NCBI GenBank assembly: GCA_030145245.1
Contig: JAQYWC010000049.1
Coordinates: 1 to 64,000, forward strand
Origin: Desulfobacterium sp.
Lineage (GTDB): Bacteria; Desulfobacterota; Desulfobacteria; Desulfobacterales; Desulfobacteraceae
DNA length: 64,000 nt
Direction: 5' to 3'
Shown: piece after piece, positions 2,661-32,341 of the stretch
How the letters are laid out: each line of letters starts with the position of its first letter
How positions within the stretch are numbered: the stretch's first letter is position 1
Notes under the pieces: model-generated
Told to the model about the DNA's origin: nothing
Database searches by the model: none
The model's input: only the letters and a program-made list of their open reading frames with translations
Translations under genes and position numbers: made by a program

Positions 2661-2742
2661 TATCGCTCCCCGCATATGAATAAAGCCCATTTCTTATTAT
2701 CATAGCTAAAGCAACTGTCAATCCCAATGCAGACATCTATAG
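2661..2742 (-). repeat. 85-bp dispersed repeat, copy A
   Basis: Lies between aapM and aapP and ends on the aapM stop codon. It aligns with copies at 5252-5339, 6620-6702 and 22224-22308. Landmarks on the plus strand are TAT.GCTCC, CATATGAATA, CCCATTTCTTATTAT and GCAGACATCTATAG. Read on the minus strand, the middle encodes IIRNGLYSYAGSD, close to the peptides in copies B and E. Confidence 0.7.
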
Positions 2743-3825
2743 CTGGTAACGCTCTTCCAGAATCCGGCTGAACTTGGAGAGGCTGTAGCACATGATCCAG
2801 TAGAACAGTGCCACAAAGAGATAGGCCTCTTCGATCTTGCCCAGCCACTTGGGGTTGGAGGTGGCGGCAAAGGCCACCTGGAGCAGATCGATGAGCCCGA
2901 TGATGCCCACAAGGGAGGTGTCCTTGAGTATGCCGATGAAATTGTTGACCATGGGGGGCAGCACAATGCGCAGGGCCTGGGGCAGGATGATGAACCCCAT
3001 CTTTTTCCAGTACCCGAGGCCCAGGGCGTCTGCGGCCTCATACTGACCCCTGGCAAGGCCCTGGAGCCCGCCCCGGATATTTTCGGCAAGGTAGGCGGCA
3101 AAGAAAAGGGTGATGCCCACCATGGCCCGCATGATCTTGCTGAACTCCATCTCCGGGGGGAAGAACAGGGGGAGCACCACCGAGGCCATGAACAAAATGG
3201 AGATCAACGGCACGCCCCGGACAAGCTCGATATAGGCCACGCTCACCGACCGGATCACGGGCATGTCGCTCTGGCGGCCCAGGGCCAGGAGCACGCTTAA
3301 GGGGAAGGCAAAGATCATGCTGACCAACGAGAGAAACACGGTGAGCATGAGCCCGCCCCACTGGGTGGAGGGCACATACTGGAGATGAAAGGTCTCCCCA
3401 CCCCGGACCAGGATGAAGATCACCGCCGGGGAGAGGATCCACAGCAGATGGAGCAGCCGCTTTTTCCGAAGGGCCCGGAACAGGGTGGCGATGATGAGCA
3501 GCAGCACCATGCCTGCGGCCAGGGCCACCCGCCACCGCTGGTCACTGGGATAGGTGCCCACCATGAACACGGGCCACATGTCCTGGATAAAGGCCCAGCA
3601 GGCCCCGTGGCTGCCCTTGCACACATCGGGGGTGGTGCCGAAGCAGGCATCGGTCACAGCCCAGCGCCACAGGGGGGTTACGAGAATATAAACAAGGGCC
3701 GCGGTCACCACCGTGAGCACGGCATTGTACCAGGGCGAAAAAAGATTGTTCTTCATCCAGTTGAGGGCACCGCTCTTCAGAATGGGCGGGCGGTCCCCGT
3801 GGTAGGGCTCTACTATGGTTTTCAT
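2737..3825 (-). CDS. aapM: General L-amino-acid ABC transporter, inner-membrane permease
   Basis: Integral membrane subunit of the amino-acid importer. Hydrophobic segments occur near residues 35-55, 105-125 and 130-150, and several follow in the C-terminal transport core. The EAA loop that contacts the ATPase reads EAADALGLGYWKKMGFIILPQALRIVLPPM in two consecutive halves; it is recognisable from EAADALGL and ILPQALR. Length 362 aa is slightly short for AapM. The start codon overlaps the aapQ stop by ATGA, indicating translational coupling. The pair of unequal large permeases is characteristic of Aap rather than of single-permease GlnP systems. Confidence 0.9.
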   Translation of the reverse strand: MKTIVEPYHGDRPPILKSGALNWMKNNLFSPWYNAVLTVVTAALVYILVTPLWRWAVTDACFGTTPDVCKGSHGACWAFIQDMWPVFMVGTYPSDQRWRVALAAGMVLLLIIATLFRALRKKRLLHLLWILSPAVIFILVRGGETFHLQYVPSTQWGGLMLTVFLSLVSMIFAFPLSVLLALGRQSDMPVIRSVSVAYIELVRGVPLISILFMASVVLPLFFPPEMEFSKIMRAMVGITLFFAAYLAENIRGGLQGLARGQYEAADALGLGYWKKMGFIILPQALRIVLPPMVNNFIGILKDTSLVGIIGLIDLLQVAFAATSNPKWLGKIEEAYLFVALFYWIMCYSLSKFSRILEERYQL

Positions 3826-5251: not shown

Positions 5252-5339
5252 GATAATAGCTTCTCGCACGTGAACAGCGCCCGTTCCGTATGACAACAGG
5301 AAAACCCGGCATCCGTTCCAGTACGACCATCTATAAGGG
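5252..5339 (-). repeat. 85-bp dispersed repeat, copy E
   Basis: Lies between aapJ and aapQ. On the plus strand it shares AATAGCT.CTC.CA, TGAACAG and CATCTATAAGGG with copy B. On the minus strand it is open and encodes VIRNGRCSRARSY, which differs from copy B partly by synonymous codons (AGA/CGG for Arg, AAT/AAC for Asn, AGG/AGA for Arg). Confidence 0.7.
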
Positions 5340-6403: not shown

Positions 6404-6712
6404 ACCTTTCTCCTGTTCCATTGATTGGGAAAACTCCAAAAAAAGATTGGATTCAGCCCCAAAGGCGTGAACCCAGCCCCTATTTCTATTGATACAGGAG
6501 TAGTCTCAGGAATTTATTTTGTCAATTTTACAATTGCTCACTGGAAGATTTTGAACATCAAAACACCCAAACAGATGGAACTTCTCCTGTTTTGTTTTGA
6601 TTTTTCCCAGAAAACAGGCTATAGCTCCTCCCAGATGAACAGAACCCATTTCTGATTATGCGGGGTAAACCAGGTCTCAATTCGAGGGCAAACGTCTATA
6701 AGGGTACTCTCC
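6404..6712. other. Divergent intergenic region aapJ / TIM-barrel gene
   Basis: 309 bp that must hold the aap promoter. On the minus strand TTGACA occurs near 6520 but no convincing -10 follows at the usual distance. The right part is occupied by repeat copy B (6620-6702). No other ORF or RNA signal is seen. Confidence 0.5.
6620..6702 (-). repeat. 85-bp dispersed repeat, copy B
   Basis: Ends about 10 bp before the ATG of the plus-strand gene at 6713. Plus-strand landmarks are TATAGCTCCTCCCA, GGTAAACCAGG, GGCAAACGTC and TATAAGGG. The same end-on position before an ATG is seen in copy C (22224-22308). The minus strand encodes IIRNGFCSSGRSY. Confidence 0.75.
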
Positions 6713-7774
6713 ATGGATACGATTCAGCGCTATTTCAACCACCTTGTGGCCGAAAAGGCCGATAACCGCATGGGCATACCCGTGCCGGCCTTTGACCGGG
6801 CCACGGCCGAAAAGCTGCTCCAGCGCATCGAGGCCGTCAACCTCCACGCCCACACCTACTCCTTTAACATGAACTTCAAGTACAGTGGCTACGAACTCCC
6901 GGATCTCATGAACTTTGCCTATGAAAACGGCCTGAACGGGGTGGGGATTCACATCGATTACGGCAAGGGCAAGGGACTTCGGAACAAATCCATCATGGAA
7001 CTGGAAGATATTGAAAGGCTATCCCGGCAACTGGGCCTGGAGATGGTGCTTGAGATCAGCAACACCTCCCCCCGGGAGATCAACCAGGCCGTACAGCTGG
7101 CAAGCCTTCTTGGCATCCAACGGATCCGCCTCTACATCGTCCACGGGGGACGGCTGAGCACCATCATGGAGCGGGGCATCCTGGATCTTGAGCAGGTGGC
7201 ACGGGTGGCCGAGGCCAACGATCTCACCTTTGTGCTGGAATCCCATGAAGCCCTCAAGGCAACAGAGCTTGTGAAGATCATCGAAACCGTGGCCAGCCCC
7301 AGGATCAAGCTTCTTTTTGACTTCGGCAACATGATCAACGCCAATGAGTACCCCCTTGAGGCCCTGGCCACCATGGCGCCCCACATCCGCCATGCCCATA
7401 TCAAAGGGGTTTGCCGGGTCATGGACAAAACCGGGTTTGGGCACCAGGGGGTTCTCCAGGGGAAGGACGACCTTCCCCAGGCAAAGCTGTTGTTCGATCT
7501 TCTCATGCTTGGCAGCACAACGCCCCAGGTTTCGGTGTTTGCCCTGGAGCAGGTGGTGGGCTACCGGTCCAGGGGAATTCGCCACGACAACGAGGGACCG
7601 GACCCCCTTCTTCCAAGAAGGGAGCCGAGCCAGACCGAGCCGGACGAGCACCTCTCCCTGGAGGAGAACCTCCGCCTGGAAAGACGGTATGCCTGCGAAC
7701 AGGTGGTCTATGTGAAAACCATGCTGGAACGGTTGAAAACCCTGGCCCTGATGCGGCTTGGGGCCGCCGGGTGA
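6713..7774 (+). CDS. Sugar-phosphate isomerase/epimerase-like TIM-barrel protein
   Basis: Predicted soluble AP-endonuclease-2/xylose-isomerase-like TIM barrel of 353 aa. Probable metal ligands sit in typical strand ends: NLHAHTYS near residue 43, VLESHE near 177, FDFGNM near 204 and HAHIKG near 231. These resemble the Glu/Asp/His set of the family. The substrate cannot be inferred. It is divergent from the aap operon and not obviously co-transcribed with the convergent AraC gene. The ATG lies about 10 bp downstream of repeat copy B; AAGGG within the repeat end could act as ribosome site. An endonuclease IV role is unlikely because the second-half ligand pattern is reduced. Confidence 0.7.
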   Translation: MDTIQRYFNHLVAEKADNRMGIPVPAFDRATAEKLLQRIEAVNLHAHTYSFNMNFKYSGYELPDLMNFAYENGLNGVGIHIDYGKGKGLRNKSIMELEDIERLSRQLGLEMVLEISNTSPREINQAVQLASLLGIQRIRLYIVHGGRLSTIMERGILDLEQVARVAEANDLTFVLESHEALKATELVKIIETVASPRIKLLFDFGNMINANEYPLEALATMAPHIRHAHIKGVCRVMDKTGFGHQGVLQGKDDLPQAKLLFDLLMLGSTTPQVSVFALEQVVGYRSRGIRHDNEGPDPLLPRREPSQTEPDEHLSLEENLRLERRYACEQVVYVKTMLERLKTLALMRLGAAG

Positions 7775-20625: not shown

Positions 20626-21675
20626 CTAGTTGCGCTGGCTCCTCTTGAAGATCCAGCAGAAGACAGGACCACCCATGAGGGCGGTGAGCACACCAATGGG
20701 AATCTCATGGGGAAGCACCGCCCGGGTGATGGTGTCTGCCCCCAAAAGCAGGATGGCGCCCATGAGCATGGACAGGGGAATGAGCTTGCGGTTGTCCGGC
20801 CCTGACACCAGCCTCACCATGTGGGGTACCAGGAGGCCTACAAACCCGATGATCCCGGACACAGACACCGAAACCGCAGCCAGGAGCGATCCAGTGACAA
20901 GCAGGATCAGGGTCACCCGCCCGGTGTCCACCCCCAGGCTTGAGGCAGACCGCTCCCCAAGGGAGACCAGGTTGAGATCCCTTGCATAAAACAGGGAGAT
21001 CCCAAGCCCGCCGACAAGAAAGCAGAGGGTCAGAACCACATCGCTCCAGGTCTTTGACGCAAAGCTGCCCATGAGCCAGAAGATGATGACAGAGACCTGC
21101 TCGTCGGCAACGTACTTCATGAAGCTGATGCCCGCCGACAGAATCGCGGCAACAATGATGCCCGAGAGGATGAGGCTGTTGGAAGAGAAGGCCGAGGTCC
21201 TGTTCTTCCCTGTATAGGAGAGAAACATGACAAACAACAGGGTCGAACAGGCTCCCGCAAAAGCGAACAACGGAACCGGGACAAGGGTTGAGCCGAGGCT
21301 CAACAAAATAGCGACACAGGCCCCGAACGCTGCGCCCGCAGACACCCCAAGCGTATATGGATCCGCAAGGGGATTGAGGAGTATTCCCTGGAAAAGGACG
21401 CCCGAAATCGAAAGCGCCCCTCCCACGGCTGCACAGGTGAGTATCCTTGGCAGGCGGACCTCCATCACGATGGTCCTCAAGGTGGCATCCAGCCTTTCCA
21501 CACAAACGCCACCGCCCCCCAACTCACCTGCAACCATGCCCACGATCTCCGTGAGCCCAATCTGCATATACCCCATGGATGCGGAAACAACGATCATCCC
21601 GACAAGGCAAAAAGAGAACAGGAGCACCAGAAACCCTGTTCCCTTTCTTGATATGGCGTTAACCGGTATACTCAC
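20626..21675 (-). CDS. btuC: ABC transporter permease, FecCD/BtuC family
   Basis: Inner-membrane permease of 349 aa with about ten hydrophobic helices, the FecCD pattern. Recognisable segments are RLPRILTCAAVGGALSISG, NPLADPYTLGVSAGAAFG and GFVGLLVPHMVRL, the last forming the ATPase contact region. It is the first gene of the cobalamin operon. The start is GTG; AAGGA lies about 13 bp upstream. The 5' leader carries a cobalamin riboswitch and a terminator hairpin, so corrinoid import and synthesis are shut off together when cobalamin is plentiful. Confidence 0.9.
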   Translation of the reverse strand: MSIPVNAISRKGTGFLVLLFSFCLVGMIVVSASMGYMQIGLTEIVGMVAGELGGGGVCVERLDATLRTIVMEVRLPRILTCAAVGGALSISGVLFQGILLNPLADPYTLGVSAGAAFGACVAILLSLGSTLVPVPLFAFAGACSTLLFVMFLSYTGKNRTSAFSSNSLILSGIIVAAILSAGISFMKYVADEQVSVIIFWLMGSFASKTWSDVVLTLCFLVGGLGISLFYARDLNLVSLGERSASSLGVDTGRVTLILLVTGSLLAAVSVSVSGIIGFVGLLVPHMVRLVSGPDNRKLIPLSMLMGAILLLGADTITRAVLPHEIPIGVLTALMGGPVFCWIFKRSQRN

Positions 21676-21924: not shown

Positions 21925-21989
21925 ATCCGTATTTATCCTCACAAAACAACATATTCAATCCAGCCCAACCGCGCAGGCACAAAGGATTA

Positions 21990-22150
21990 TTCTGTTCAGG
22001 CAGGTTTTCTGACTCCCGGATCAGTTTACTTGCTGCGTCTTCCCGTCCAATTGGACAGTGACTTGATGCAGCGTTCATCCCCGGTCACAGCGGCGGGTCC
22101 GTTCCTGATTTCCACAGGATTCCCTCTTTTTACTAAAAATAACACCTGAA
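21990..22150 (-). promoter_or_regulatory. Cobalamin (AdoCbl) riboswitch
   Basis: The minus strand contains the conserved B12-box elements in order: GAGGGAAT, GTGGAAATCAGGAACGG, CCCGCCGCTGTGACC, GTCACTG, CGGGAAGACG and GATCCGGGAGTCAG followed by ACCTGCCTG (near 21997-22004). The nearest downstream genes are btuC and the rest of the B12 operon. Binding of adenosylcobalamin is expected to favour the terminator at 21887-21924. Exact ends are approximate. Confidence 0.95.
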
Positions 22151-22223
22151 ATTTTGAAAAAACAATAAAACGCCTGTAGTTAAAAGTCAATGGATTTCTT
22201 TACTGTTTTCAACAAATTCGTGT

Positions 22224-22308
22224 TATAGGTTCTCCCATATGAATAGAGTTTATTTTTTATCACAAATCAGGTAACCCAGGCATCCATTCAGGTGCAAACA
22301 TCCACAGG
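22224..22308 (-). repeat. 85-bp dispersed repeat, copy C
   Basis: Plus-strand landmarks are TATAGG.TCTCCCATATGAA, GGTAACCCAGGCATC and GTGCAAACATCCACAGG. It ends 10 bp before the ATG of the glycosyltransferase gene, like copy B. The minus-strand reading frame is broken by two extra bases but still shows VIKNKLYSYGRTY. Confidence 0.65.
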
Positions 22309-24532: not shown

Positions 24533-24612
24533 GCCATAGAGATTCCCGATACCACTCCGAAAGAAAGCGTATAAACCCGACCATGGGAATGCAGTCAGCC
24601 GTTCGGGTATAA
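24533..24612 (-). repeat. Possible degenerate copy D of the 85-bp repeat
   Basis: Shares GGC.ATAG, TTCGGG and AACATCTATA in the same order and spacing as the clear copies, and like copy A it ends at the stop codon of a minus-strand gene. The middle is poorly conserved, so this copy is doubtful. Confidence 0.35.
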
Positions 24613-26792: not shown

Positions 26793-26865
26793 AAGGCCCA
26801 TGGATCAGCGCCAGGGGAAGCTTTCCTGCAACACCCTGTCGCTATTATGAGGAAAGGTGGCAGAT

Positions 26866-28632
26866 ATGAAAAAGCTTTTTTTAATCGTGCTGATAATCGT
26901 TTCAACCGCCCTTGCCCAGGCCGGGGAACCCACAGCTGAACAGGAACGACGGGTTGAAAAAGACACCAATGATGACAACCTGGCCGACCAGGTCGCCGTG
27001 TTTGATGCAGACAACACCATCATCCGCATGGAGATCGACACCAACCATGACAATGCCATGGACCGGGTCCAGTACTATGAGCAAGGAAAGCTGACCCGGG
27101 TCGAGCGGGACACGGACCTTGACGGAACCATGGACTGCAAGGACTTTTTCGAAAATGAAAAGCGGACCCGCCAGACCCGGCACACCCCCAATGGCAGCCT
27201 GATTCAGCTCTCCCTGTTTGACGGCACCGGCACCATTATCGAGATGAGAAAGGACACCTCCGGCACCGGCGGATTCGACCTTGTCTACTATTTTGAACAG
27301 GGCCAGGTGACCCGCTCCACCAAGGACACCGACGACAACGGCAAGGTCAATGTCTGGCAGACCTTTGCCAACGGCAAGCCAGTTGAGCAGCGGGTGGATG
27401 ACGACGAGGACGGTCATCTGGACTCAGTGGTGCACTACGATGGAGAAGGACTTCCCAAATCCAGCAGCCACGACCTGGACAGGGACACGGTGATGGAGAC
27501 CTTCCGCACCTATATCAAGGGAGAGATCGCCTGCCAGGAGAAGGACGTCAACACCGATGGCACCATGGACTCGGTCACCACATTCGCAAACCTTGAACCC
27601 CTACACCAGAAAAAGGACGCCAACCTGGACACCCGGTTTGATATCTTCACGACCTTTAAAAACGGCGTGCCCGCCACCCAGGAAAGGGACACCAACCATG
27701 ACAACACCCTGGACCAGTTCACCTGTTTTGACGACAAGGGCCTTGTAAAAACCATCCGGGAGGACACCCGCTTTTCCGGCACCATCGACCGGCTCAGGTT
27801 CTTTGAAAAAGGGGTGCCGGTCCGGGTGGAGTATGACAGCGACGGAGACCGCCTGCTTGAGACCGTCTCCTTTTTTACGGCCGGAAGGCTCAGCCGCCAG
27901 ACCCGGGACGACAACAAAGACGGGACGCCGGATACCACCATTTTCTTTGACAAAAACGAGGAGAGAGAACGGGTGGAGAGCGATGCCGACCTCAACGGCC
28001 GGACGGACACCTGGCAATATTATGCCAACAGCCAGATCACCCGCATGGACAAGGATGAAACCTGTGACGGCCGGGTGGACCTCAAGATCCGATATAAAAA
28101 CGGCAAGCGGACGACCCTGGAAAAAGACAGCGACGCAGACGGCTGTTTTGACATTGTCCAGCGGTTTGACACCCCGGGATGGTCCTGGATCACCGAGCAG
28201 AACCGGTATTGCGATGATAGCGTTGATGCACGATACTTCTATAAGGACGGGGTGCTCAGAATCAAGGAGATCGATGAAGACCACGACGCCCAAATTGACC
28301 TCAAGGTTCACTATGACCCCAATGGCAAGATGGTAAAAAGCGAAGAAAAGGAGGAGGAAACCGGCCGGCTGACCCTGGTGTGGTTCTATGACCCTGAAGA
28401 GAATCCCGTACGGGCGGAAAAGGACACCAACGGCGATGATCAGCCGGACACCTGGTTCTTCTATGACCAGGGCCATGTGGTCATGGTGGAGGAGGATACC
28501 AATGGGGACAGCAAGCCCGATCTCTGGGAGCGCTATGACGCCTCCGAGGTGATGATCAAAAAGGAGCGGGATCTCGACTTTGACGGCAAGCCCGATATCA
28601 TCGACTTCCAGGAAGAGCAGATGGCAGGATGA
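26866..28632 (+). CDS. Secreted acidic tandem-repeat protein of the TonB-system operon
   Basis: A 588-aa protein with a signal peptide (MKKLFLIVLIIVSTALAQAG) followed almost entirely by about 23 tandem units of 24-25 residues. Each unit has an acidic loop such as DTNHDNAMD, DTDLDGTMD or DTNGDDQPD, then a short aromatic strand (QYYEQGKLTRVE). The loops look like DxDxDG calcium-binding loops of dockerin or thrombospondin type 3 repeats. Expected location is periplasm or outer surface. ATG 26866 has GGAAAGGTGG upstream. It precedes exbB-exbD-tonB by 143 bp, suggesting a periplasmic scaffold or substrate-capture role in TonB-dependent uptake. No named family can be assigned with confidence. Confidence 0.75.
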   Translation: MKKLFLIVLIIVSTALAQAGEPTAEQERRVEKDTNDDNLADQVAVFDADNTIIRMEIDTNHDNAMDRVQYYEQGKLTRVERDTDLDGTMDCKDFFENEKRTRQTRHTPNGSLIQLSLFDGTGTIIEMRKDTSGTGGFDLVYYFEQGQVTRSTKDTDDNGKVNVWQTFANGKPVEQRVDDDEDGHLDSVVHYDGEGLPKSSSHDLDRDTVMETFRTYIKGEIACQEKDVNTDGTMDSVTTFANLEPLHQKKDANLDTRFDIFTTFKNGVPATQERDTNHDNTLDQFTCFDDKGLVKTIREDTRFSGTIDRLRFFEKGVPVRVEYDSDGDRLLETVSFFTAGRLSRQTRDDNKDGTPDTTIFFDKNEERERVESDADLNGRTDTWQYYANSQITRMDKDETCDGRVDLKIRYKNGKRTTLEKDSDADGCFDIVQRFDTPGWSWITEQNRYCDDSVDARYFYKDGVLRIKEIDEDHDAQIDLKVHYDPNGKMVKSEEKEEETGRLTLVWFYDPEENPVRAEKDTNGDDQPDTWFFYDQGHVVMVEEDTNGDSKPDLWERYDASEVMIKKERDLDFDGKPDIIDFQEEQMAG

Positions 28633-28775
28633 CGTGCCCGGCCTTGCAACCGGTAATTTTTTACAAGGAAACCTAAGCTGGACAAACCAGAACCCAAAAA
28701 AGTTTCTGATTCCCTTGCCAAAATGACGCAAGAATCAGAGCCAAGAAGCTAAAATCACTTATAGAGGAGCGATCT

Positions 28776-31989: not shown

Positions 31990-32341
31990 GGATCACCTGT
32001 GGTGTGAAAGTCGTTGCAATCATTGGTTTCAGGGATAACGACGAAACATAATTTCGTAACAGGTTCTTATCTCTGGTTTTCATGTTGTTTTGGCAAGGGT
32101 ATCAGAAAAACGCTTTGGTTCCGGCTTGTCCAGATCGGGGCCTGATAAGAATTAGTAAGAAATCGCGCAGCGCTTGTCAACAGGAATTTCCCGCCATGTC
32201 AGAGGGGATAGGGCACACAAGGTCAGTGGCAGCCATGTTGTCCATGGGGATCGCCGCGATCCCGGAGCTTCCGGGATCGCGGCGAAGTTTGATGGGATGA
32301 TCGGTAAAAAGCTTAGGGGAACCCCCAGGCAGACCAAAGAT
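31990..32341. other. Intergenic region with perfect long hairpin
   Basis: 352 bp between the radical-SAM stop and the DUF4015-like start, both on the minus strand. Besides the hairpin at 32251-32285 there is a small inverted repeat ACGAAA-CATAA-TTTCGT near 32041-32057. No ORF with coding character is seen. Confidence 0.5.
32251..32285 (-). terminator. Perfect 16-bp GC-rich hairpin downstream of the radical SAM gene
   Basis: TCGCCGCGATCCCGGA and its exact complement are separated by GCT. It lies 57 bp after the radical-SAM stop on the minus strand. There is no T-tract, so it may be a 3' stabilising hairpin or factor-dependent terminator rather than a classical terminator. Confidence 0.5.

Follow-up and report, generated by a model that had tools for sequence, protein, structure and literature searches.

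The window, the whole stretch of 64,000 nucleotides analysed here, contains four copies of a short repeat (2661-2742, 5252-5339, 6620-6702 and 22224-22308) that can be aligned from end to end. The first two lie within an operon for an ABC transporter of the polar amino-acid type, an assignment for which most family scores fell below the curated cut-offs, and the other two stop 10 and 9 bp ahead of an ATG (6713 and 22318) when the ends given by an earlier sequence-only reading of this DNA are used. That reading had placed two copies between the genes of one operon, two copies about 10 bp before an ATG and one copy on a stop codon (compare Table 1). When the flanks of copy 1 were joined over one TA, the frame of the permease gene became two residues longer, as judged by eye. 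The window also harbours a cobalamin riboswitch (21982-22164, minus strand; Rfam RF00174, 107.8 bits) upstream of a BtuC-like permease gene (20626-21675, with permease scores below the curated cut-offs), and an ORF of 591 aa (26857-28632, plus strand) with repeated segments and direct DNA repeats between 26955 and 28158.

Table 1. Repeat copies in the window, read here as probable MITEs, and the stop codon that one of them contains (G000, the window's own genome; G001 and G002, genomes of the same genus)
Feature	Position	Strand	Setting	Remarks
Probable MITE copy 1	2661..2741	+	flanked by ATP-binding gene and permease gene, ABC transporter operon, polar amino-acid type	outer TA at 2661-2662 and 2740-2741; orthologous copy in G001
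TAG stop codon of permease gene 2737-3825	2737..2739	-	inside right end of copy 1	C-terminus ERYQL*
Probable MITE copy 2	5255..5335	+	between permease gene (likely start 5204) and substrate-binding protein gene	left outer TA = AA; orthologous copy in G001
Probable MITE copy 3	6620..6700	+	just ahead of ATG of ORF 6713-7774	orthologous copy in G001
Probable MITE copy 4	22224..22306	+	cobalamin riboswitch (other strand) on one side, glycosyltransferase-like gene from 22318 on the other	right outer TA = CA; filled in G000 and G001, empty in G002

A profile made from 13 copies outside the window scored the four window copies at 62.8, 50.7, 50.0 and 45.3 bits, compared with a top score of 11.7 bits over 40 dinucleotide-shuffled windows and no more than 7.0 bits in the rest of the real window. 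The 13 copies had originally been retrieved with copy 3 as the query, so this control is not fully independent of the window. The proposal of four alignable repeat copies was borne out by these scores. The doubtful fifth copy suggested at 24533-24612 had an alignment score of -23 against a shuffled mean of -21.2; it resembles shuffled DNA and is unsupported.

The genome to which the window belongs (G000, 6.42 Mb) was scanned with model R1, which was built from 17 copies from sequence only. We obtained 116 matches at E<=1 among the best 150 of 1186 candidates scored, and 101 matches at E<=0.01 among the best 119 of 1152, far above the line of about five copies below which the idea of a repeat family was to be given up. 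The matches lay on both strands, and the single orientation noted earlier therefore held for the four window copies, all of which are on the plus strand, but not genome-wide. Among the 102 G000 rows listed to E 0.01, 67 were full length and 35 truncated (16 without the left end, 18 without the right end and 1 without both); these rows were copied by hand, one of them belongs to a different place, read on the other strand, and the element C38:28782-28884 spans two.

The unit is about 82 bp long and has imperfect terminal inverted repeats, and its description as not hairpin-like has to be corrected in this respect. We derived a consensus, TTATAGCTCCTCGCATATGAATaGAgCCCATTTCTTATTAcAAtAGGTAAAgCaGGTATCAATTCGAGTGCAAACATCTATA, from 97 copies with both ends present (45 from G000 and 52 from G001). 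In the frame of the model, which takes in about three flanking bases, 91 of the 97 measured 81-87 bp. None of the window copies is long enough to hold a transposase gene. The terminal inverted repeats of the 97 copies had 16.4 matches in 28 positions versus 7.2 in shuffled elements, and the inverted-repeat score exceeded the shuffled 99th percentile in 87 of them; in one relative (L134) the repeats were near-perfect. The blocks TATAG, GCA and GAATNGA are common to both ends and give the end pattern TATAG-N7-GCA-N3-GAATNGA. A terminal TA was present at the left end of 73, at the right end of 76 and at both ends of 55 of the 97 copies, and beyond it no consistent direct repeat was found in their flanks. 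As to a target duplication longer than TA, individual flank-position pairs had z values of up to 3.2 among 272 tested, none of them forming a consistent repeat in the 97 copies, and this candidate was rejected.

Short palindromic units that are mostly outside ORFs and number about 100 could also be REP or REPIN elements, whose mover is a RAYT (Y1 tyrosine) transposase. A REP is a palindrome of 20-40 bp in the part of the source available (PMC3733652), and the unit of about 82 bp lies outside that size, so an identity with REP was rejected. The TA ends and the inverted termini also speak against REP/REPIN elements, as does a DDE-type element, described below, that has the same kind of ends, and we regard this explanation as extremely unlikely.

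Most copies sit between genes, on either strand. ORFs of 100 aa or more, called by a heuristic, completely enclosed 16 of 96 copies, compared with 355 of 384 control positions chosen at a distance of 300-400 bp. The ORFs on either side were co-directional for 51 of the 96 copies, divergent for 22, convergent for 14 and unclassified for 9, and the copies between co-directional ORFs lay on the strand of the genes in 18 cases and on the opposite strand in 33. The sequence-only reading had offered, besides a mobile small element, a leader copied into several loci, and a transcribed regulatory leader or structured RNA duplicated in this way would agree with the two window copies that stop 9-10 bp ahead of an ATG. 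It would also agree with folding energies below those of shuffled sequences (mean z -1.99 on one strand and -1.84 on the other, with z < -2 in 40 and 41 of the 97 copies); both strands, however, fold about equally well, as is expected of palindromic DNA. RNAalifold, applied to 17 copies, gave no consensus pair; at the curated cut-off Rfam matched none of the window copies, its sole match in the window being the cobalamin riboswitch, and the orientation of the copies to genes was not fixed. The elements were, moreover, less conserved between G000 and G001 than their surroundings (see below). The leader is therefore not upheld by these data, and we consider a transcribed regulatory element of this kind very unlikely.

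When 38 genomes, G000 among them, were searched with model R1 at E<=0.01, G001 gave at least 119 matches, all 119 scored candidates being positive, G002 gave 1 match and G013, of the same family, gave 5. A single weak match in G027 (E 0.0096) did not look like a copy by eye, and the remaining 33 genomes had no match to this model. Relatives over the whole length were found in G013 (4 copies), in G002 and in a Desulfamplus MAG, and the order has another three genomes in which elements with the same core form inverted pairs (L119, L130 and L134). Model R2 was run across the phylum, on 395 genomes with 11 candidates scored in each, and matched at least five genomes, the window's own one included. 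In G360 the match was a copy of 81 bp, in G719 two related elements about 107 bp long and in G427 a left end alone; the remaining genome was G082, which belongs to the same order.

The same spaced blocks at both ends of the consensus might instead mark binding sites of a host protein, a family kept by selection for chromosome organisation or partition. Against such a family, 35 of the 102 listed rows are truncated, the two other members of the genus that were searched have at least 119 matches and 1 match, and the presence of the element at orthologous sites differs between species. We hold this explanation to be extremely improbable.

Counterparts of all four window copies were found in G001, and these copies are therefore most likely older than the split of G000 and G001. 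Copy 4 is filled in both of these genomes and absent from G002, where the flanks are continuous. We further compared six G001 copies (A-F) with G000 and G002. Copy B (C142:36612) is missing from G000, whose empty site forms the loop of a terminator-like hairpin, and joining the G001 flanks with one TA gave, by eye, the same length as the G000 site; no G002 counterpart was found. Copy C (C142:44243) is absent in both G000 and G002. Copies A and F are common to G001 and G000, A being internally deleted in G000, and copy E is represented in G000 by an internally deleted remnant; at none of these three sites does G002 carry a full copy. For copy D no counterpart was found in the compared loci. The alignments at C, A, E and F were gappy outside the element. 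We thus observed three filled/empty sites between related genomes as evidence of movement. The empty sites fit TA, yet they are too diverged to prove a TA duplication for the MITE itself.

Within the fetched loci, 63 copies from G000 and 66 from G001 could be paired 17 times, one locus being repeated in two of the pairings. In seven orthologous G000/G001 pairs with both ends present, the identity of the element was 0.75 versus 0.85 in the 300-bp flanks, in a comparison that takes in genes within the flanks and, in one pair, a copy with an internal deletion. Random pairs of copies within G000 (n=150) had a mean identity of 0.70. From these values we take the copies to be old, and, judged without a neutral yardstick, they give no hint of being under strong selection.

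The match of model R2 in G082 proved to be the left end of a complete insertion sequence of 1,385 bp, counted with one TA (L239). Its ends, TATAGTGCGTCGCAAATGAATTGATACC and, inverted, TATAGTCCGGCGCAAATGAATTGATACT, are alike at 25 of 28 positions, and its left end has the same base as the left end of the MITE at 21 of 28 positions, compared with a mean of 7.1 and a maximum of 18 in 100,000 shuffles. The element carries an ORF of 415 aa that matched PF13358 (DDE_3) at E 1.8e-11 and contains YHPELQPIE, which we take to be a motif typical of IS630 transposases. Two copies of the element are present in G082, both encoding the query protein at 100%. At one site the flanks are compatible with a TA duplication, since a frame of 146 codons runs open through the junction when they are joined with one TA; the other site had no long frame and was, by eye, the loop of an inverted repeat. 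The element sits in another genus and its inner sequence is unlike the core of the MITE by eye, and the likeness of the ends would not imply direct descent.

Two insertions were thus seen in the loop of a terminator-like inverted repeat, the G001 copy that is absent in G000 (G001:C142:36612-36693, L155) and one copy of the G082 insertion sequence (G082:C4, L246). Insertion into hairpin loops as a rule was rejected: stems of at least 9 were found in 3 of 97 copies versus a swapped-flank mean of 0.92 (maximum 4), which is not significant. Nor was there a significant difference in the mean pairing energy of the flanks (-11.2 versus -10.8 with swapped flanks, SD 0.35).

The G082 transposase was used as a query in 13 genomes, four of which matched (G082, G097, G360 and G095). 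The transposase fragments in G097 (62-65% identity) and G360 (78%) adjoin the same kind of end; in G097 two such ends also stand about 400 bp from each other, and G360 has both the fragment and the 81-bp copy. In G095 the match covered 26 residues (E 3.6e-4), and there was no such end in its locus. The query gave no match in G000, G001, G002 or G013. PF13358 had no matches in G000 and none in G001, and one match each in G002 and G013, without matching ends. By eye, left-only and right-only G000 matches within 3 kb of each other did not delimit a full-size element. Searching for the end pattern, we obtained hits in 29 of 291 genomes of the order (at least 34 matches listed versus 15 in the reversed control) and, with up to 3 mismatches, in 21 of 86 genomes of the family (26 matches versus 6), these counts coming from the patterns alone. 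Twenty loci of the order search were scanned for an inverted partner; it was present within 400 bp in L119, L130 and L134, none of which was a full insertion sequence.

Taken as a whole, the repeats are best read, with a probability of about 0.9, as copies of a MITE of about 82 bp that belongs to the IS630 (Tc1/mariner-like) group, inserts at TA and was moved in trans, with no transposase detected in its own genome. The mobile small element proposed earlier is supported by the copy number, the terminal inverted repeats, the mostly non-ORF scatter, the filled/empty sites and the complete insertion sequence whose ends are of the same kind. From the ends, an IS630-type transposase probably moved this family. 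Such a transposase, supplied in trans, would recognise the shared pattern at both ends of the MITE, excise the element and paste it into a TA dinucleotide, and the TA would thereby become duplicated; for the copies in G000 and G001 we infer this duplication, as well as the cut-and-paste chemistry, the former from old flanks. Selection would then leave mainly intergenic copies. The family probably spread in the ancestor of G000 and G001 and to some extent also after their split, a later spread appearing more plausible than loss. Because no transposase of the type was detected in G000 or G001, the present copies are most likely immobile relics, which have drifted to about 70% mutual identity.

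The host could, in addition, have partly co-opted orphaned copies, using the TAG of their ends to stop translation and their palindromes to signal termination or RNA processing, with a transposase that favoured TA in the loops of terminator-like hairpins. This we think unlikely. Some copies may possibly act as stop codons or terminators; the data do not indicate a general function.

A MITE of this sort is ordinary in kind. We found no description of the family in the literature searched, which covered the field in part. By description, with no alignment, it is like RUP of Streptococcus pneumoniae, a short intergenic MITE with about 100 copies, inverted ends and a TA target; the available part of the source gives RUP as 107 bp long with 108 intergenic copies and proposes that an IS630 transposase acts on it in trans (PMC2229807). 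The ends of RUP are there reported to resemble the ends of IS630-Spn1, the proposed mover, which occurs in the same host (PMC2229807), whereas no transposase of the type was detected in G000 or G001. The Correia elements of Neisseria (NEMIS, CREE) also begin with TATAG, often insert at TA and exceed 120 copies in N. gonorrhoeae, according to the sections available (PMC2649163, PMC10969869). They differ in length, most commonly 104-108 or 153-157 bp in the text at hand (PMC2649163), and in the sequence after TATAG, our consensus having TATAGCTCCTCGCATATGAAT where the search pattern in the same text has TATAG[CT]GGATTAA... (by eye). An identity with Correia/NEMIS was rejected, since the Correia sequence after TATAG is not present in the consensus. 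Chunjie of Geobacter uraniireducens is, in the part of the source available, a MITE of 178-235 bp with one copy in an operon, others intergenic and many partial (PMC10969869). It resembles the present family, by description and not by sequence, in having operon, intergenic and partial copies, and differs in its length. With IS630/Tc1-mariner insertion sequences the family shares, through the G082 element, the kind of ends, the TA-compatible flanks and the DDE_3 transposase, but the window copies lack the length for such a gene.

Read in this way, a MITE would account for about 100 intergenic repeats of G000 and at least 119 matches in G001, and it would tie these repeats to an IS630-type insertion sequence with matching ends. 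The filled/empty sites could be used as markers in this bacterial family, and the copies should not be called promoters, leaders or small RNAs. For the biology of mobile DNA this would be a further case akin to Correia and RUP, but an unusual one in that the carrying genome yielded no partner transposase.

Another dispersed family, with a unit of about 83 bp (TTAGCTTCTTAGCTCTGATTTTCG...GGTTCTGGCTTGTCCAGGTTAAG), was observed in the window at 28672-28752 (minus strand) and 32061-32135 (plus strand) and also at L069, L095, L097, L105, L141, L159, L168 and other loci. It had 20 distinct matches at E<=1e-4, counted over the fetched loci and not genome-wide, and looks like another MITE. Three of the 20 matches abut or interrupt copies of the first family, and in the G001 counterpart of window copy 3 (L069) the right end is interrupted by an element of this second family.
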